A stretch of 64,000 nucleotides of DNA from assembly GCA_002238505.1 (NCBI GenBank), contig MPMM01000002.1, positions 1 to 64,000 of the forward strand, given 5' to 3'. The DNA is from SAR202 cluster bacterium bin22. GTDB taxonomy: Bacteria; Chloroflexota; Dehalococcoidia; Lucifugimonadales; UBA3495. Both the position numbers and the translations under genes were made by a program. Each line of letters begins with the position of its first letter. Position 1 is the first letter of the stretch. Under the pieces are notes generated by a model. That model was not told the origin of the DNA. It ran no database searches and was given only the letters and a program-made list of their open reading frames with translations. This document shows positions 17,392 through 27,250 of the stretch, piece after piece.

Positions 17392-18834
17392 ATGCCCGGC
17401 AACATCAAAGACCGTTATGGAATGACCCTCTCCACCAATTCTCCCGCCGCCGCTGACCTCTGGCAGGAGGGCATTGACCTCCTCCTCTCCCAGTCCTACG
17501 GCGCAGAGGAGAAGCTGCAAGAGGCCATTGACACCGACGAAGGCTTTGCCATCGCCCACGGTTGCCTCGCCTTCCTGCACATGACCCGCGCCCGCCCCGA
17601 CCAGGCCCGGGAAAGCGTCAAGCGGGGTCTGGAACTGGCCGACGGCATCACCGACCGGGAACGCCGTCACATCGAGGCAGTTAACCTTTGGGCCAACGGC
17701 AAGGGCCCCGACGCCCTGCGGCTGGTCAGGGAACACCTGGTCGAATGGCCCAGGGATTCGGTGCTGCACCGGCTCGCCCAGCGCCTCTACATGCTGGGTT
17801 GCAGCGGCGCCGGCGACCCCTCTTTCCCGCCTGCCCTCTTGGCCATGATGGACGAGGTGGCCCCCCACTGCGGCGACGACTGGGCCTTCCTGGGCCAGTA
17901 TGCCTTCGCTCACCACGAGAACGGCATCCTCGACAAGGCCCTCAGCCTGGCCGAAAAGTCCCTCGAAATGAACCCCGGCAATGCCGTGGCCGCCCACTCG
18001 GTTACCCACTCCTACTTCGAGTACGGCGATGCGGCCACCGGCGGCAACTTCCTGGGTAACTGGCTGGAGGGCTTCGACGCCCGTGCTCACTACCACACCC
18101 ACCTGTCCTGGCACCAGGCCCTGTTCGAGTTGGCGTTGGGCAGGTACGGCGAGGCGTTGCAGCTCTACGAGGACTGGATTCGCCCCACCGCCATCAACAA
18201 GAACATCTCGGGCTTGTCCGACAGCGCTTCCTTCATGTGGCGAATGACCATCTACGGCGGCGAAGCCCCTCCCAAGCCCTGGGATGAAGTCAAGGAGCAG
18301 GCGGCTCCGGCGGCCACCACCCCGGGCGCGGCCTTCCGCGATGCCCATGCCGCCCTGGCTTTCGCGGCCAGCGGCGACCGGGAACTCATGGACCAGATGA
18401 TCAACCGTCTCCGGACCAACGCTGAAAACGGCAACATCTTCGCCAAGGAAGTCATCCTGCCCCTGGCCCAGGGCATCGACGCCTTCGCCCAGCAGGACTA
18501 CAGCGCTTCGGTGGACTACCTGGAACCGGTGTTCCCCCAGCTTATCCGCATCGGTGGCAGCCACGCCCAGCGCGAAGTGTTCGAGGATACTCTGCTGGAG
18601 GCCTACCTGCGCGCCGAGCAGTTTGACAAGGCCGAAGCCATGCTTCAGGAACGCCTCGGCCGCCGCGACACCCCCAGGGACACTTTCTGGCTCGGTCGCG
18701 TTATGGCCGGCAAGGGCGAGTCCTCAACGGCCCAGGACAGCCTGTCCAAAGCAGCCGGCGTCTGGCAGGAGACGGGCGACGCCGAAACCCCGGAACTAAG
18801 AAACATCGAGCAACTCTCCGGCGCCCTGTCCTAG
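17392..18834 (+). CDS. TTC38-like tetratricopeptide repeat protein
   Basis: 480 residues from ATG 17392, with GAAGGAGG 9 nt upstream. Helical-repeat character throughout: AEEKLQEAIDTDEGFAIAHG, ARESVKRGLELADGITDRER, ALSLAEKSLEMNPGNAVAAH and HLSWHQALFELALGRYGEAL. The last stretch, with Y-H-T-H-L-S-W-H just before it, is the hallmark of the TTC38 family (bacterial and eukaryotic TPR proteins of unknown biochemical role). No signal or membrane segment. The gene stands alone, flanked by repeats. Confidence 0.8.
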   Translation: MPGNIKDRYGMTLSTNSPAAADLWQEGIDLLLSQSYGAEEKLQEAIDTDEGFAIAHGCLAFLHMTRARPDQARESVKRGLELADGITDRERRHIEAVNLWANGKGPDALRLVREHLVEWPRDSVLHRLAQRLYMLGCSGAGDPSFPPALLAMMDEVAPHCGDDWAFLGQYAFAHHENGILDKALSLAEKSLEMNPGNAVAAHSVTHSYFEYGDAATGGNFLGNWLEGFDARAHYHTHLSWHQALFELALGRYGEALQLYEDWIRPTAINKNISGLSDSASFMWRMTIYGGEAPPKPWDEVKEQAAPAATTPGAAFRDAHAALAFAASGDRELMDQMINRLRTNAENGNIFAKEVILPLAQGIDAFAQQDYSASVDYLEPVFPQLIRIGGSHAQREVFEDTLLEAYLRAEQFDKAEAMLQERLGRRDTPRDTFWLGRVMAGKGESSTAQDSLSKAAGVWQETGDAETPELRNIEQLSGALS

Positions 18835-19454
18835 CCTTCCCCACATCGGTTGCTCGCATAAGCAGCGCCAGGGACAATACGCGTCAGCGCGGTCCTTGGC
18901 GCTTTTCTGTTCGCCGTTCCAATCCGCCCAGCCGCCCCGTCCCATCAACGCTGCATTGCCCGACATCGGTAGGGGGGCACCGCCGCGCGCCCCCCGTCCC
19001 ACCACCGCTGCATGGCCCGACATCGGTAGGGCCGCACGGCCGTGCGCCCCGCGCCCTCGCGCCCCTGCGCCGCCCTGCGCCAAAAAAACGCCCACCAGAC
19101 CTTCCGACCCTTACGCCGCCGCCAACCGCAACCAACATCAAAACCAAACTCCCCCCTCTCCCTATGGGAGAGGGGCCGGGGGTGAGGGCCGCCCCACCAA
19201 ACCATGTCATCCTGAGCGAAGCCGAAGGATCCAAAATCCCTACCAAATACCATGCCCAGCCAATCGCAACCAACCCTGAAAACCAAACTCTCCCCTCGCC
19301 CTATGGGAGAGGGGCCGGGGGTGAGGGCCCCCGCCACCACATACCATGCCCAGCCAATCGCAACCAACCCTGAAAACCAAACTCTCCCCTCGCCCTATGG
19401 GAGAGGGGCCGGGGGTGAGGGCTCCCGCTCCTTCCCCCCATTTGCCCTTCACGC
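18835..19454. repeat. Composite intergenic block of palindromic repeats (copy 2)
   Basis: No gene. It holds two CATCGGTAGGG..GCGCCCC-type units (about 18960-19050) and three copies of the GAGAGGGGCCGGGGGTGAGGG hairpin (ending about 19188, 19328 and 19421). The last copies are joined to a repeated linker (CATGCCCAGCCAATCGCAAC at 19250 and again at 19345). A CATCCTGAGCGAAGCCGAAG unit lies at 19208. The order matches 5060-5190. Confidence 0.85.
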
Positions 19455-19460
19455 TATAAT
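19455..19460 (+). promoter_or_regulatory. -10 box next to pcrA start (leaderless mRNA likely)
   Basis: TATAAT at 19455-19460 ends only 9 nt before the ATG at 19470. Transcription would start at or within a few nt of the start codon, leaving no room for a ribosome site. Confidence 0.6.
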
Positions 19461-19469
19461 CTTGTGGTT

Positions 19470-21713
19470 ATGTCCACACATCCACCTGACCTCCTGGACG
19501 GCTTGAACGACGCCCAGGCCGAAGCCGTCATTACCACCGAAGGCCCCCTGCTCATTGTGGCCGGCCCTGGCAGCGGTAAAACCCGTGTCGTAACTCACCG
19601 CATCGCCTACCTGGTTCGGGAGTCCTCCGTCAGCCCCTACCGCATCGCTGCAGTCACCTTCACCAACAAGGCGGCGCGTGAGATGCGCGATCGTATCCAG
19701 GGCTTGCAGGTCCCCGATGCCGACTCCGTCTTCGCCGGCACCTTCCATGCCTTCTGTGCCCGCCTGCTGCGCCGGTATGGGGAGGGCGTGGGCCTCGATT
19801 CCAACTACACCATCTATGACGCCGATGACCAGTTGGGCCTGATTAAGCAGTCTATGCAGTTGGCCGATGTGGATGAGAAACGCAATCCTCCCCGGGCCAT
19901 CCAGGGCGTCATCTCTCGGGCCAAGAGCCTGTTGATGGACTCGGTTGGCCTGGCCAAGCGGGCTCAGATTGAAGACGATTTCCAGGCCGAAATAGCCGCC
20001 CGCGTCTATCACCACTATGAGGAACTGCTGGGCCGCAGCAACGCGGTGGACTTTGACGATCTGCTCATGCGGGCCGTTCAACTGCTGCAGGAGAACCTTG
20101 ACGTAAGGGAGGACTACCACCGTCGCTACCACTACCTGATGGTGGACGAGTTCCAGGACACCAACATTGCCCAGTACCGCCTGGCCCGCCTGTTAACCGG
20201 ACCCGACCAGAATATCTGCGTGGTGGGCGACCCCGACCAGTCAATCTACTCCTGGCGCAACGCTGATATCAGGAACATTCTCAGTTTCCAGCAGGACTAT
20301 CCCGACGCCCGGACCATTGCCCTGGAGCAGAATTACCGCTCCTCCCGCAACATCCTGGACACGGCCAGCGCCCTCATTGCCAACAACGGCATGCGTGTGG
20401 AAAAGGAACTGGTGACGGAAAAGACCGCCGGCGCCGATGTGGTGGTCCACGAGGCCTACAGTGCGGTGGAGGAAGCCGAGTTTGTAGTTAAACAGATTAA
20501 AGACCTGAAGAACCGAGAAAAGATCTCGCTAGGCGATTGCGCGGTAATGTACCGCATAAACGCCCAGTCCCGTATTTTGGAAAGAGCTTGCTCTGACCAT
20601 GACTTAAAATACCGGCTTGTGGGCGGAACCCAGTTTTACCGTAGAAGGGAAGTTCGGGACGTATTGGCATTTCTGTTTGTATTACGGAATCCTCAGGATG
20701 ACGTGAATTTGGAAAGAGCCATTAAGACTTCATCCAGAGGAATTGGCGACAAGACCCTCCAGGGCATAGTCCGTTGGTCTCTTGGCCAGCACATCACCGT
20801 TCTAGAAGGAATTAAACGAATATCTCTTGCAAAGGCAGCTGGTTTACCCTGTCCTGCTCCCCTGGCATCCCGCGCCTACACCGCCGTGTCCCGGTTCGGC
20901 GAATTGATGATTAGGATGGAGGATTTGAGGGATAAGCTGCCCATTTCGCGTCTGATAAAGGTCTTGGTGGATGAGGCAGGCTTGGAGGCTTATATTCGTA
21001 GTGTGGACACTAACCCAGAAGAGCGAATGGAGAACCTCTATGAGCTTATCGCTTCGGCCGAGGAAAAAGAAACCGGCTCGCCAGAGGATGACATGCGCGA
21101 TTTCTTGGAATATGCCTCACTTCAGTCGGATGTGGACACTTATGACGATACTGAAGATGCACTCACCCTGATAACCCTGCACCAGGCCAAGGGTCTGGAG
21201 TTCCCCGTAGTCTTCATCGTTGGTCTGGAAGAGGGTCTGCTGCCCCACAGCCGTTCCATGGACAGCAATGAAGAATTGGAGGAGGAGCGCCGGTTGTGCT
21301 ACGTGGGCATCACCCGGGCCCAGGAGCGGCTGTACCTGTTGCGGGCCTTCCAGCGCGCCATGTATGGCCGGTCGTCGTCCACCCTTCCCTCCCGGTTCCT
21401 GGACGAAATCCCACAAAAGCTGCTGACCTACGCCAGTGCCCCCGGCGCCAGAACTGTCCAGACCGTGTCCCACCGCACCAGCTTCGACCGCAGCCTGACC
21501 ACTTGGGACCGGGGCAGCAGCGTTGAGGAACCCGCCGGCCCCGAATACGTCCCCTCCGTCGGTGACCAGGTGAAACACGTGAAGTTCGGGCAGGGCGAAG
21601 TTGTCCAGTGCGAGCGGTGGGGCAGCGACTACGAGGTCTCCGTCTGCTTTGACGGGGGTGAACTTCGCCGTCTGCTGTTGAGCTTCGCCGGCCTGGAAAA
21701 GGTCCAGGGGTGA
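19470..21713 (+). CDS. pcrA: ATP-dependent DNA helicase PcrA/UvrD
   Basis: 747 residues (ATG 19470; a GTG two codons earlier is the alternative). SF1A helicase motifs in order: Q-motif LNDAQAEAV, Walker A GPGSGKT (about 33-39), GTFHAFCARLLRR, Walker B DEFQD (about 226-230), motif III GDPDQSIYSWR, motif IV QNYRSS, TLHQAKGLEFPVVF and motif VI VGITRAQERLY. The C-terminus (GDQVKHVKFGQGEVVQ...LLLSFAGLEKV) is the PcrA-type Tudor-like domain that binds RNA polymerase. It unwinds DNA 3'-5' in repair and replication restart. Bases 20480-21150 have much lower GC at third positions than the rest of the gene (see findings). Confidence 0.95.
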   Translation: MSTHPPDLLDGLNDAQAEAVITTEGPLLIVAGPGSGKTRVVTHRIAYLVRESSVSPYRIAAVTFTNKAAREMRDRIQGLQVPDADSVFAGTFHAFCARLLRRYGEGVGLDSNYTIYDADDQLGLIKQSMQLADVDEKRNPPRAIQGVISRAKSLLMDSVGLAKRAQIEDDFQAEIAARVYHHYEELLGRSNAVDFDDLLMRAVQLLQENLDVREDYHRRYHYLMVDEFQDTNIAQYRLARLLTGPDQNICVVGDPDQSIYSWRNADIRNILSFQQDYPDARTIALEQNYRSSRNILDTASALIANNGMRVEKELVTEKTAGADVVVHEAYSAVEEAEFVVKQIKDLKNREKISLGDCAVMYRINAQSRILERACSDHDLKYRLVGGTQFYRRREVRDVLAFLFVLRNPQDDVNLERAIKTSSRGIGDKTLQGIVRWSLGQHITVLEGIKRISLAKAAGLPCPAPLASRAYTAVSRFGELMIRMEDLRDKLPISRLIKVLVDEAGLEAYIRSVDTNPEERMENLYELIASAEEKETGSPEDDMRDFLEYASLQSDVDTYDDTEDALTLITLHQAKGLEFPVVFIVGLEEGLLPHSRSMDSNEELEEERRLCYVGITRAQERLYLLRAFQRAMYGRSSSTLPSRFLDEIPQKLLTYASAPGARTVQTVSHRTSFDRSLTTWDRGSSVEEPAGPEYVPSVGDQVKHVKFGQGEVVQCERWGSDYEVSVCFDGGELRRLLLSFAGLEKVQG

Positions 21714-21733: not shown

Positions 21734-22372
21734 CTATTGCTCCTTACCGCTTTCCGACATCTCGGTAAACAGACGGCGCCACTCCTCATCACTCCCCTGA
21801 CCCATGTTGCCCCGGTAAATGATGAATCCCTCGGAGTCAAAGGCGATTTTGGTGGACTGAAGGGTAATGTTGAAGTCCGCCAGCATTTGGACGGAACTGG
21901 CCGCCACCGGCCAGGGGTATCCCCGACTCTCTCCGTACATGATCAGGGTGTCGACGTCCTCGACTATGCCGTAGTGGGCGCCCACCGCATAAAAGGCCAC
22001 GTCATCGGCAAACTCGGGGTAAATGTCCTTCATCCGCCGCAACTCGGCGGTACATACCGGTCAGGTTGTCGCCCAAAAATACAGAAATGTGGGCCGACCC
22101 TGTTCCAGCAGGTCTGGCAGAGCCAGGCTCTCGCCTCCTTCCAGTTCAAGTTCAAAGTATGGCGCCAAGGTGCCAATTCCGGCGTTGCCAGGCTCGGACA
22201 GTAGCGTCGGACCCTCGTGAATGTGCTGATCCAGGTGTTTCGCCTCGGAATTGGGCAAGAAGGGATTGGGAATGTCGAACAGGACAAGAGAGAGGTAGAT
22301 CACCAGCGCCGCTGCCGGGGCGGTGTATGCCAGCCCTAACAGGGCTTTGCTCTTCCAGGCTCTGCCGGTCAT
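21734..22372 (-). CDS. Membrane-anchored thioredoxin-fold selenoprotein (UPVC), copy A
   Basis: If TGA 22063-22061 is read as selenocysteine, the frame gives 212 residues from ATG 22372, which has GGGGAG 9 nt upstream (ATG 22390 is the alternative). One N-terminal membrane segment (LLGLAYTAPAAALVIYLSLV) is followed by a spacer and a redoxin domain: LAPYFELELEGGESLALPDL, RPTFLYFWATT, then U-P-V-C at about 104-107, TAELRRMKDIYPEFADDVAF and STKIAFDSEGFIIYRGNMG. U takes the first position of the CxxC thiol pair, as in UxxC redox selenoproteins. The domain would face outside the cytoplasm. Read as a stop, TGA would cut the protein just before the active site. It converges with pcrA. Confidence 0.85.
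22034..22050 (-). promoter_or_regulatory. bSECIS-like stem-loop, copy A
   Basis: It starts 10 nt after the in-frame TGA. A 6-bp stem CCGCCG/CGGCGG encloses the loop AGTTG. The loop begins 17 nt after the TGA and has G as its second base, which agrees with the published bacterial SECIS pattern. Confidence 0.75.
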
Positions 22373-22519
22373 ATCAATTGGCTCCCCCATTTCCGGGCCC
22401 GATCACTCGCCCGGGGCCTTCCGCGCCGCAGGGAGTTAGTCCAGGGCAGAACGATGAAAGAGGGGCCGGGTTGGCTGGGGGATTAGGGGGAGGCCTTCCC
22501 TGGGTTCGCTGCCGCTGGT

Positions 22520-23152
22520 CTATTGAGACTGGGATAGCTCGGTGAATATCCGATGCCACTCCTCGTTGTCTCCCTGTCCCATGCCTTCTCGATAGATAAT
22601 GGTCCCGCTGGAGTCAAATGCGATCTTGGTGGACTGAATGGTGACACCCAGTTCCGCCATCACTTCCGATGGAGCGGTGGCAACCGGCCACGGGTGCTGC
22701 CTTTCAGCCCGATACTGCTCAAGAGTCTCTAGGTCTTCTACAATTCCCGGATGGACGCCGATGGCATAGAAGTCCACATCGTCGGCGTACTGCGGGTAAA
22801 TGTCCTTCATCCGCCGCAACTCGGCGGTGCAGACCGGTCAAATCGTGGCCCAGAAGAACAGGTAGGTTGGCCTTCCCTGTTCCACCAGGCTGGCGGAGGT
22901 CACGCTCGTGCCGTCCACCAGTTCCATGGTCACGTCGGGAATCTGGTACCCGACCTGGTTGCCTGTCTCCTGCGTCTCCGGAAAGTCCGCCGCCGTCAGA
23001 ACGTACTCATCGGCAGCAGGGGTATCTGCAGTCGAAAAAGGATTAATGGACTGTCCGCTACTGGACAAATAAACAGAGGCCGCAAAGCCTGCCACCGGTA
23101 CCAATATCCCCAGCGCCAGCAAGACCTTGCCTATCCAACCGTTCTTGTTCAT
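22520..23152 (-). CDS. Membrane-anchored thioredoxin-fold selenoprotein (UPVC), copy B
   Basis: 210 residues with TGA 22840-22838 read as selenocysteine (residue 105). The N-terminus MNKNGWIGKVLLALGILVPV begins one membrane segment and an exported part follows. The redoxin domain contains VGYQIPDVTMELVDGTSVT, PTYLFFWATI, U-P-V-C (105-108), TAELRRMKDIYPQYADDVDF and STKIAFDSSGTIIYREGMG. It is a close paralogue of copy A downstream and starts at an ATG preceded by GGGGG. A TATAAT box lies at 23181-23176, between it and the terminator of the upstream gene, so it likely has its own promoter. It probably works as an extracytoplasmic reductase or peroxidase; the substrate is unknown. Confidence 0.86.
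22811..22827 (-). promoter_or_regulatory. bSECIS-like stem-loop, copy B
   Basis: Identical to copy A: stem CCGCCG/CGGCGG, loop AGTTG, 10 nt after the TGA. Confidence 0.75.
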
Positions 23153-23175
23153 TTACCCCCGCCTATAGAAACCCA

Positions 23176-23181
23176 ATTATA
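23176..23181 (-). promoter_or_regulatory. -10 box for selenoprotein gene B
   Basis: TATAAT on the minus strand, with a weak TGGAAA 17 nt upstream and the ATG about 24 nt downstream. Confidence 0.5.
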
Positions 23182-23270
23182 CATCGCCCTGCGATATATT
23201 TCCACGTGCATGAGTCTCCGAAACACCCCATCCTCCCCCGCAACTGCCAACCTGCACCGCCACCCCCACA

Positions 23271-23311
23271 AAATCAAAGACCCAGGGCAGCAAAACCAGT
23301 TGCCCTGGGTC
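23271..23311 (-). terminator. Intrinsic terminator after selenoprotein gene C
   Basis: A perfect 11-bp stem GACCCAGGGCA/TGCCCTGGGTC with an 11-nt loop, followed on the minus strand by TTTGATTTT. It separates gene C from gene B. Confidence 0.88.
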
Positions 23312-23363
23312 ATCAATTCTTGCAGGAACCCCCGGGTCCATACCCGGTCAGCGCCCCTCGGAC

Positions 23364-24422
23364 CTATTGATTGGCTAGGTCCGTAAACACCCGGTTCCAG
23401 GTGTTGGAGCTTCCACCGCCAAAGCCGTCCCGGTAGGTAATTACACCCTGGGAGTCAAAAGCTATCTTGGTGGACTGTTTGGAAACGTTCAGGGCGGACA
23501 ATGCCTGGTTTTCCTCTACTATATTGGCCACCGGCCAGGGATAACCCTGCTGCTGCCGCTGGTTCTCGAGACGGTCAAGGTTATCAAAGGACTTGGAAAC
23601 TGCTATTGCGAAAAAGTTAACCTGGTCAGCGTACTCCGGGTAGATGGACTTCATCTGCCGCAACTCGGCAGCGCACTGCCCTCAAGTGGATGAGGTAAAG
23701 AACAGGAAGGCAGGCTTGCCCGACTCCACTATGCTCGATACCGAAACCGTCGTGCCACCCACCAGTTCAAGGGTAAAGTCTGGCATCCGGTTGCCTACCT
23801 GGTTCCCTAGGTCGGGCAAAGGCTCCTGCTCCACAACCGCCGGCGCCTCGGTGGGCACGGGCGCTGCCGTAGGAGCGGGCGCGGGCACCACCACCGGTGC
23901 GGACGCAGGCTCAGCGGGCGCCGGGTCCGGAGCAGCCTCCTGTTTCGCCGGCATGGCCTCGCTCGGCGCGGAAGCAGGTTCGGTCTGCGGTTCCATGGCC
24001 TTGACCACAGGCTCCGGATGGGACTCCATGGTCTCGGTAGCCGGCTTTTCCATGGCCCTCTCAGGCATAGCCTCTACAACCGCCGGCTGTTCTCCTGGCA
24101 TCTGCTTGACCGCCGGTTGCACTATCAGCGGTTGTGTCTGCGTGTCTGGCGCAGTGGCCGGTTCTGTCTTCGCCATGCCCTCCGTCGCTGTCGCCCCAGC
24201 GGGTTGCTCTGCCGGAACGCTCTGTACCGGAGTCTCCGGCTGCGTGGCCGGCTGCGACTGGACTGCCGGACCGGGTTCGCTGGCTGGCGCTGCCGGTGCT
24301 GCCGGCTCATCAGCGGCTCCACAGGCCAGGGCCAGTACCAGCAATAACGTCGAAAGCGCCAGCGCTATCACCTTAACAGGCGGGCGCCCGGGCGACCCCA
24401 GGCGTCGCTTCAAGATTCTCAT
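23364..24422 (-). CDS. Thioredoxin-fold selenolipoprotein (UGQC), copy C
   Basis: 352 residues from ATG 24422 (a TTG 9 codons upstream is the alternative) with TGA 23684-23682 read as selenocysteine (about residue 247). A signal peptide ends LVLALAC, a probable lipid-attachment Cys. A roughly 150-residue linker rich in Pro, Ala, Glu and Gln follows, then the redoxin domain: VGNRMPDFTLELVGGTTVSV, KPAFLFFTSST, U-G-Q-C (about 247-250), AAELRQMKSIYPEYADQVNF and STKIAFDSQGVITYRDGFG. The domain would be tethered outside the membrane at the end of a flexible arm. It is a paralogue of copies A and B but carries UGQC in place of UPVC. Confidence 0.86.
23655..23671 (-). promoter_or_regulatory. bSECIS-like stem-loop, copy C, with compensatory change
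   Basis: Stem CTGCCG/CGGCAG, loop AGTTG, 10 nt after the TGA. Compared with copies A and B, the second base pair is T-A in place of C-G: both sides changed and the pairing is kept. Confidence 0.78.
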
Positions 24423-24852: not shown

Positions 24853-26343
24853 TCAGCGGGCCCGGCCTCCTTGCAGCCACGCTCGGCCGTCACTTCCCAG
24901 GAACCGGTCGGCTTCCACCGGGCCCCAGCTTCCCTCAGAGTAATAGTAAGGACGGGGCGCCTGCGGAAGGTCCAGGCCGGCAATTATGGGATCCACAATG
25001 CCCCACGCCTGCTCGATTTCGTCAGCGCGGGTGAACAGGGAGGCGTCCCCGTTGAGCGCATCCAGCAGCAGCCGCTCGTAGGCGTCGGGGATCGCTTGAC
25101 CGCTGAAGGCCTCGTGGTAGTGAAACTCCAGCTCCGCCTTGCGCATTTGCAGGCCGGCCTCCGGCGTCTTGGTCTGAAACTCCAGTTGAAAGCCCTCGTC
25201 TGGCTGAACGAAGATGGCCAGGGTGTTGGCCGGAATGTCCTCGTCCTCCGCCAGCGGGAACAGCATGTGGGGCGGGTTTCGAAACTGGATTATTATCTCG
25301 GTGGACTTGCTGCGCAGAGCCTTGCCCGACCGCAGGTAAAACGGCACTCCCTGCCACCGCCAGTTGTCCACGTGAAGGCGCAGGGCGGCGTAGGTGGCCG
25401 TTTCGGAGTCAGGAGAAACTCCGGTCTCATCCCGGTAGCTGCGGTACTGGCCCGGAATCGCGTGCCGGCCCACGTCCTCCGCGTGAATGCGACGAATGGC
25501 GCTCAAAACCTTTACCTTTTCGTTGCGCAGCGCCTCTGCCTCGAAGGCGTGGGGCGGTTCCATGGCCACCAGGGTAAGTAGCTGGAGCAGGTGGTTCTGG
25601 AACATGTCCCGCATAATCCCCGTCTGGTCGTAGTACTCCCCCCTCTCGTCAATCCGCAGGGTTTCGGACACAGTTATCTGAACGTGGTCAATGTAGTTGC
25701 GGTTCCAGACCGGTTCGAAAATGGCGTTAGCGAATCGGAACACCAGCAGGTTCTGTACCGTCTCCTTGCCCAGGTAATGGTCAATGCGGAATACCTGGTC
25801 CTCCCGGAACACCGAGTGGGCGATGTCGTTTAGCTCCCGGGCCGAAGCCAGGTCGGTTCCGAAAGGCTTCTCAACAACCAGCCGCCGCCAGCAGTTGGCG
25901 TCGTCAGCCATGCCGGCGTCGCCCAGCCCGGTTATGGCCGGCTGGTACAGGGAGGGAGCAAGGGAAAGGTAGTAGAGGCGGTTGCCATCGCGGCCATCGC
26001 CTTCAATTTCGGCCAGCTTTCGCTTCACCTCGGCGATGTCCTCCGCCTTGGTCACGTCGCCGTGGATGTAGTGAATGCGGGAAGTAAATTCGGCCCACTG
26101 GTCCGGGGTTGGTTTGCTCATCCCGTCACCGCCCAGGAACTCCTCAAGCAGCGTGTGGAATTCTGCGTCCCCCATGTCGCTGCGGGCCACCCCCAGGATG
26201 TTCAGGTTAGGGGGGAGTCGTCCCTTGCTGTGGAGGCTTGCCAGGGCCGGAATCAGCTTGCGCCGCGTCAGGTCGCCGCTGGCGCCGAATATTACCAGGG
26301 TAATGGGACCGTCAGATGGGTCAATGGTTTCAGGCATCGCCAT
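24853..26343 (-). CDS. zwf: Glucose-6-phosphate dehydrogenase
   Basis: 496 residues from ATG 26343, which has GGAGG 7 nt upstream; the longer frame to 26409 runs inside gnd. The Rossmann start is LVIFGASGDLTRRKLIPAL. VVEKPFGTDLASARELN and the active-site stretch FRIDHYLGKETVQNLL identify the enzyme. IRRIHAEDVGRHAIPGQY and FYLRSGKAL agree. It oxidises glucose 6-phosphate to 6-phosphogluconolactone with NAD(P). It overlaps the end of gnd by 14 nt and is the last gene of pgi-gnd-zwf. No lactonase gene (pgl) is next to it. Confidence 0.96.
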   Translation of the reverse strand: MAMPETIDPSDGPITLVIFGASGDLTRRKLIPALASLHSKGRLPPNLNILGVARSDMGDAEFHTLLEEFLGGDGMSKPTPDQWAEFTSRIHYIHGDVTKAEDIAEVKRKLAEIEGDGRDGNRLYYLSLAPSLYQPAITGLGDAGMADDANCWRRLVVEKPFGTDLASARELNDIAHSVFREDQVFRIDHYLGKETVQNLLVFRFANAIFEPVWNRNYIDHVQITVSETLRIDERGEYYDQTGIMRDMFQNHLLQLLTLVAMEPPHAFEAEALRNEKVKVLSAIRRIHAEDVGRHAIPGQYRSYRDETGVSPDSETATYAALRLHVDNWRWQGVPFYLRSGKALRSKSTEIIIQFRNPPHMLFPLAEDEDIPANTLAIFVQPDEGFQLEFQTKTPEAGLQMRKAELEFHYHEAFSGQAIPDAYERLLLDALNGDASLFTRADEIEQAWGIVDPIIAGLDLPQAPRPYYYSEGSWGPVEADRFLGSDGRAWLQGGRAR

Positions 26344-27250
26344 CGCCGGACCTCCGCACTGGGTGGCCTCCGAACTGGTTGCGCAGGGCTGCCAGCAGCT
26401 TGGCGCCAAAGGGCTGGGCCTGGCGGGAACGGAATCGCTGCAGCAGCGAGAGGGTTATTACCGGCGCAGGCACGGCCAGGTCCACCGACTCCTGGACTGT
26501 CCACCTGCCCTCGCCCGAATCCTCCACGTAGGCCTGTAGGTCCGACAGGCTGGGGTCCTCTTCCAGCGCCGACACCACCAGGTCCAGCAGCCAGGAGCGA
26601 ACCACGCTGCCATGCCTCCAGGTGTTGGCAATCCTGGTCAGGTCCAGGTTGAACTCTTCCTTGGCTGCCATCAACTCGAAGCCTTCGGCGTAGGCCTCCA
26701 TCAGGGCGTACTCCACTCCGTTGTGGATCATCTTGACGAAATGCCCCGCGCCCACCGGCCCCACGTGGCTGTACCCCCGGTCAGAGCCGGGAGCCAGGGA
26801 CTGGAAGATGGGTTCAAGCCGCTGGAACACCTCGTCCTTTCCGCCCACCATGAGCGTATAGCCCTCGGACAGGCCCCAGATGCCGCCGCTGGTTCCAACA
26901 TCCACCAGCTCTATGCCCATGCTTGCCAGCTTTTCGGCCCGCCGCAGGGTGTCCTTGTAGTTGGCGTTTCCCCCATCCAGTATTACGTCCCCGGGCTGCA
27001 GCAGGGGCGCCAGCCGGTACATGGTGTCTTCCGTGGGCTCGCCCTGGGGCAGCATCAACCATATGGGACGTGGGGGGGTGAGCTGGGTAATCAGCTCTTC
27101 CAGTGTGTGGGCCCCGTCCGCTCCCTGGGTTATGCTCCCGTACACCGCCTCGGTATTGGTGTCGAAGGTCACCACCCGGTGGCCGGCGCCCAGCAGCCTC
27201 TGTACCATGTTGCCGCCCATGCGGCCCAGGCCGATCATTCCCAGTTCCAC
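26330..27250 (-). CDS. gnd: 6-phosphogluconate dehydrogenase, short (GndA/YqeC, probably NAD) type
   Basis: 306 residues from GTG 27250, with GGAGG upstream. The Rossmann motif is MIGLGRMGGNMVQRLL, followed by FDTN, which has an acidic residue where NADP enzymes have NRT, so NAD is likely. PGDVILDGGNANYKDTLRR and the catalytic GPVGAGHFVKMIHNGVEYAL are diagnostic. The length of about 300 residues (not about 470) is that of the short dimeric form. It decarboxylates 6-phosphogluconate to ribulose 5-phosphate and is coupled to zwf by overlapping reading frames. Confidence 0.94.
   Translation of the reverse strand: MELGMIGLGRMGGNMVQRLLGAGHRVVTFDTNTEAVYGSITQGADGAHTLEELITQLTPPRPIWLMLPQGEPTEDTMYRLAPLLQPGDVILDGGNANYKDTLRRAEKLASMGIELVDVGTSGGIWGLSEGYTLMVGGKDEVFQRLEPIFQSLAPGSDRGYSHVGPVGAGHFVKMIHNGVEYALMEAYAEGFELMAAKEEFNLDLTRIANTWRHGSVVRSWLLDLVVSALEEDPSLSDLQAYVEDSGEGRWTVQESVDLAVPAPVITLSLLQRFRSRQAQPFGAKLLAALRNQFGGHPVRRSGDGDA

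Follow-up and report, generated by a model that had tools for sequence, protein, structure and literature searches.

The locus described here raises the question of whether three adjoining genes, each interrupted by an in-frame TGA, are broken genes, genes read with an altered code or genes for selenoproteins, and, if the last, whether they make up a dedicated redox set. The window analysed is the whole stretch of 64,000 nucleotides from SAR202 cluster bacterium bin22; it forms the start of contig C53 in a genome of 4.39 Mb that is 97% complete. Judged from the sequences, the three genes almost certainly encode selenoproteins. We consider highly probable the fuller reading that they are three paralogous, exported and membrane-anchored ResA/TlpA-like selenoproteins, which arose by tandem duplication, are decoded through hairpins read by SelB and have a redox role based on a UxxC motif.

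Three adjoining genes with an in-frame TGA

The three genes and their TGA codons, predicted to encode selenocysteine (Sec), are located in the window as follows.

23364..24422, minus strand: gene C, 352 aa from an ATG at 24422, with a UGQC redoxin domain at the C-terminus
23682..23684, minus strand: in-frame TGA codon of gene C, predicted Sec
22520..23152, minus strand: gene B, 210 aa, with an N-terminal transmembrane (TM) anchor and a UxxC redoxin domain (UPVC)
22838..22840, minus strand: in-frame TGA codon of gene B, predicted Sec
21734..22390, minus strand: gene A, up to 218 aa, with an N-terminal TM anchor and a UxxC redoxin domain (UPVC)
22061..22063, minus strand: in-frame TGA codon of gene A, predicted Sec

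Each gene has a single in-frame TGA, which takes the place of the first Cys in a ResA/TlpA-like CxxC motif (FFWATIUPVC, YFWATTUPVC and FFTSSTUGQC in the three genes) and is followed three codons later by Cys, and each frame then runs on to a TAG stop. The preliminary description had placed the TGA codons at 22063-22061, 22840-22838 and 23684-23682 on the minus strand, with Cys three codons further on and a normal stop at the end of each frame, and all of this was confirmed exactly. Its two kinds of membrane anchoring were also recovered, as a lipoprotein signal in the upstream gene C and one N-terminal TM segment in each of genes A and B. The signal of gene C is lipobox-like (LALAC), and a long Pro/Ala/Glu-rich linker separates it from the redoxin domain. 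In a profile search, all three genes scored above the cut-offs for Pfam AhpC-TSA and Redoxin, and in alignments the match of the three genes runs across the TGA.

TGA serves as the terminator of both neighbouring genes, a helicase (19464-21713) and a glucose-6-phosphate dehydrogenase (24853-26409), the names of which were read from sequence. Upstream of the helicase, window positions 18700-19600 hold a repeated, low-complexity intergenic sequence, which translates as SPLALWERGRG / HPRPLSHRERG.

Predicted selenocysteine insertion and conservation of the TGA

The preliminary description had proposed a search of the genome for selA, selB, selC and selD and would have taken the lack of selB, selC and selD as a refutation; all four are present: SelA (541.7 bits), SelD (385.6 bits), SelB and the tRNA-Sec (SelC). 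The SelD gene (L020:1396-2466, minus strand) is itself a TGA gene, with the in-frame TGA in HCAGUAAK. SelB was found above the cut-off in 87 of the 95 TGA-bearing genomes tested; each of the remaining eight is an incomplete or fragmented bin (75-92% complete). This co-occurrence is supportive but weak, because SelB is widespread across the class, also in genomes that do not have the UxxC redoxin family.

In each gene the TGA is followed, at a distance of 16 nt, by a hairpin that resembles a bacterial SECIS element and has the loop AGUUG.

23655..23671, minus strand: SECIS-like hairpin of gene C
22811..22827, minus strand: SECIS-like hairpin of gene B
22034..22050, minus strand: SECIS-like hairpin of gene A

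The stem has 6 bp in all three genes, and that of gene C differs from those of genes A and B by one compensated change, from a C-G to a U-A pair. The published model of bacterial SECIS elements calls for a 3-9-nt loop that has G in the first two positions, a distance of 16-37 nt from the UGA and a stem of at least 4 bp (PMC13188914), and the hairpins of all three genes satisfy it. Among TGA genes of the family, 24 of 31 satisfied the model against 4.0 expected from synonymous codon shuffling that kept the peptide and used codon frequencies pooled from relatives, and among Cys homologues 10 of 41 did so against 5.4 expected from the same shuffling; because the sequences are related, these counts do not represent independent events. 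Over 24 distinct TGA sequences, compensated changes were found in five of the six hairpin pairs, and the covariation score was 0.548, compared with 0.146 for shuffled sequences and no more than 0.212 when the partners were slid. RNAalifold recovered the same helix unprompted.

Relatives with the TGA were collected in one class-wide and one order-wide search. In the order-wide search the family was found in 101 of 247 genomes, and exactly one TGA was present in 138 of the 148 family matches listed; for several dozen matches the TGA position and its UxxC context were verified residue by residue. Cys occupies the Sec site in G157, G753, G788 and G765 and in archaeal homologues, its codon being TGT in genus g441 and TGC in G765. 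In two of the Cys-only genomes (G157 and G765), no SelB match above the cut-off was detected. A separate pattern scan of contigs, which crossed the active site, gave Cys homologues only, because the pattern demanded Cys, and the viral contigs scanned yielded no relatives of the family. Two TGT orthologues of genus g441 (L215 and L216), which come from genomes that still have SelB, group within the TGA forms in the tree and are probably Sec-to-Cys replacements; the tree's count of one change for Cys was set aside, because it omitted unlabelled rows. When the frames were aligned with their homologues, as the preliminary description had proposed, the site held TGA or Cys and the sequence was kept downstream. 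In comparisons of this genome with genus relatives, dN/dS 3' of the TGA was 0.07-0.15, about as low as 5' of it, and therefore the C-terminal halves are translated and constrained.

Two explanations that do without Sec can be weighed against these data. If the TGA codons were nonsense mutations, the genes would be pseudogenes that produce only N-terminal fragments or restarts, and a standard gene caller would probably indeed split each of them at the TGA. However, the same codon recurs in 138 matches (among the matches listed) from dozens of genera, and with strong purifying selection past the TGA (dN/dS as above) and the covariation of the hairpins we rejected this explanation as extremely improbable. 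A genome-wide reassignment of TGA to an ordinary amino acid would account for its translation in these genes, but TGA terminates the helicase and dehydrogenase genes on either side, the family TGA is confined to the redox site, and a full Sec machinery is present together with covarying SECIS-like hairpins. The TGA-terminated neighbours and the hairpin covariation led us to discard reassignment too, as having next to no likelihood. The selenoprotein reading of all three genes, already put forward in the preliminary description, is thus strongly supported by the Sec machinery, the TGA and Cys homologues and the conserved sequence downstream.

Fold, active site and arrangement in relatives

An AlphaFold2 model of gene B (pLDDT 85.5; 95-98 for most of the domain, falling to about 50-65 in the anchor) has a ResA-like thioredoxin fold. 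Its best structural match is ResA (Z 21), ResA and its relatives giving Z values of 19-21 and the AhpE and Bcp structures about 17. The Glu three residues past the second Cys is conserved, as in ResA/TlpA, and the position aligned to the cis-Pro of ResA is occupied by Ser in 35, Ala in 4 and Asp in 1 of 40 sequences. Two short copies, in G006 and G066, have QPSK at this site, and Pro has therefore been kept in a few copies. The NCBIfam ResA and DsbE models gave at best 37.1 bits against a cut-off of 170. For the CcdA/DsbD electron donor (DsbD_TM, PF02683), no match was found in this 97% complete genome, while 10 of 14 controls were positive; yet several exported proteins with a thioredoxin fold are encoded in this genome (G000).

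The order of gene C and then gene B is shared by the genus relatives G795, G815, G854 and G855, and also by G784 of the same family. In the four testable relatives (G795, G815, G855 and G784), in which the contig continues past gene B, gene A does not follow; in G854 the contig ends, and this genome was left out of the test. Three copies in a row were found only in the present genome, and the unit of the genus is the pair. In the tree, in which the row Balneol_C_40 was disregarded as a wrong-frame pick, gene A branches separately, close to the B group, and local support there is weak. Other families within the order and the class have tandem pairs as well, and many relatives are single-copy. 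In G357, G745 and G813, one frame with no intervening stop encodes two UxxC domains and has a separate TGA for each. At L065 (U at 2767 and 3529), L209 (2728 and 1945) and L213 (1817 and 2561), one ORF covers two UxxC redoxin domains, both with an in-frame TGA, and the products are predicted to be double-Sec proteins. The search output for L210 (G802 contig 282) has two tandem copies, one with a TGA and one without a stop. Among the neighbourhoods of 18 relatives, no conserved neighbour or operon partner was found beyond closely related genera. A single-contig genome of 1.52 Mb from the same class encodes at least five proteins with reductive dehalogenase features, Tat motifs RRDF(M/V/I)K among them, and on this basis the class was taken to be Dehalococcoidia.

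With Sec accepted, two further questions concern what the proteins do and whether they act as a set. They might be mainly peroxidases that work outside the membrane and reduce H2O2 or organic hydroperoxides, with Sec as the peroxidatic and Cys as the resolving residue. The best Pfam family (AhpC-TSA), the good alignment of AhpE and Bcp, the Ser or Ala in place of the cis-Pro of thiol oxidoreductases and the naming of catalogued Sec homologues as Prx-like (PMC13188914) all point that way, but the ResA-type structures align better, the peroxiredoxin motif PxxxTxxC/U is absent around the TGA of the three genes, and UxxC with the conserved Glu is a ResA/TlpA-like combination, so that we hold a peroxidase role to be possible but on the unlikely side. 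As to the second question, the preliminary description proposed that the three paralogues form a dedicated extracytoplasmic set, and a strict version would have three distinct components working in series as a relay rather than redundant or niche-partitioned paralogues. The adjoining of two anchoring kinds, the C-then-B order kept in the genus and G784, and the recurrent pairs and fused double-Sec proteins are in its favour, while the restriction of the third copy to this genome, the many single-copy relatives and the lack of conserved partner genes make such a relay improbable. Of the proposed set of three, the part that stands is the pair of a lipoprotein and a TM-anchored protein kept in the genus; the third gene, found in none of the four testable relatives, and the missing conserved partners do not bear out the rest.

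Proposed mechanism and comparison with known systems

For the preferred reading, that of ResA/TlpA-like UxxC selenoproteins, we propose the following course of events. Sec-tRNA-Sec would be made by SelD and SelA, and SelB would bind the hairpin 16 nt past the in-frame UGA and direct Sec to the first residue of UxxC; this SelA/SelD/SelB route and the predicted place of Sec are, at the sequence level, the strongly supported part. The products are predicted to be exported, with gene C lipidated and genes A and B held by one TM helix each. Outside the membrane, the Sec selenolate would attack an oxidised sulfur (a sulfenate, a disulfide or the disulfide form of a methionine sulfoxide reductase), the motif's Cys would resolve the product through a selenenylsulfide, and a putative membrane donor other than CcdA/DsbD would re-reduce the protein. 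Tandem duplication may have given the conserved pair of a lipoprotein and a TM-anchored protein, and then the third copy in this genome. A broader proposal is an envelope selenium redox system specific to Dehalococcoidia, with paired or fused Sec redoxins, a membrane donor distinct from CcdA/DsbD and, because the active site has lost the cis-Pro, substrates unlike those of known thioredoxins; we regard it as speculative and rather unlikely.

Dehalococcoidia are a large and mostly uncultured class. The present lineage makes unusually heavy use of UxxC redoxins, which occur as tandem pairs, as one triplet and as double-selenium fusions, and the locus is a clear case of adjoining selenoprotein paralogues likely to be overlooked by standard annotation. 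Since Sec is dominant (138 of the 148 matches listed) and Cys forms are scattered, Sec-to-Cys exchange can be tested here in one well-sampled family. The family further suggests that these bacteria carry out selenium-dependent chemistry outside the membrane, with a putative electron donor other than CcdA/DsbD.

The preliminary description did not recognise the three genes as a described system. This holds in part: our search of the literature on selenoproteins of Chloroflexi, Chloroflexota, SAR202 and Dehalococcoidia, with incomplete journal coverage, found no description of this tandem family, while UxxC selenoproteins have been catalogued as Prx-like thiol:disulfide oxidoreductases (PF00578) and in the Redoxin family (PF08534) (PMC13188914, PMC2398784). 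The catalogued proteins share with ours the Pfam domains, Sec as the first residue of UxxC and a bacterial SECIS downstream, and differ, as far as their descriptions set them apart, from the membrane-anchored or lipoprotein forms, the tandem pairs or triplet, the double-Sec fusions in relatives and the loss of the cis-Pro seen here. ResA, TlpA and CcmG are alike in fold (Z up to 21), in the FxATWCxxC setting, in the Glu past the second Cys and in the membrane anchor, whereas our family has Sec for Cys and Ser or Ala for the cis-Pro, and the search of the genome for a CcdA/DsbD-type partner was negative. Deiodinase-like selenoproteins (PF00837, NF038285) have a related thioredoxin fold, but against NF038285 genes B and C scored 18.7 and 31.1 bits, respectively, with a cut-off of 250. 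Another TGA gene with a thioredoxin fold on the same contig (L017:3854-4639, minus strand; about 465853-466638 of C53; GSYTUPPFRA) is deiodinase-like and scored 186 bits against the same cut-off.

Several selenoprotein genes also adjoin in Tso (three selenoprotein operon) and Sao (PMC13188914); those operons combine different protein families, whereas three paralogues of one family adjoin here. The pneumococcal lipoproteins Etrx1 and Etrx2 are likewise paralogous extracytoplasmic thioredoxin-fold proteins that match in structure, and differ in having CxxC, a known MsrAB partner and no Sec (PMC3914529); they are the nearest functional model found. Because selenoproteins are already known among both UxxC redoxins and thiol:disulfide oxidoreductases, the novelty is that of a lineage-specific variant: the kind of protein is familiar, and what appears to be new is a Dehalococcoidia family with tandem and double-Sec forms and a lost cis-Pro.
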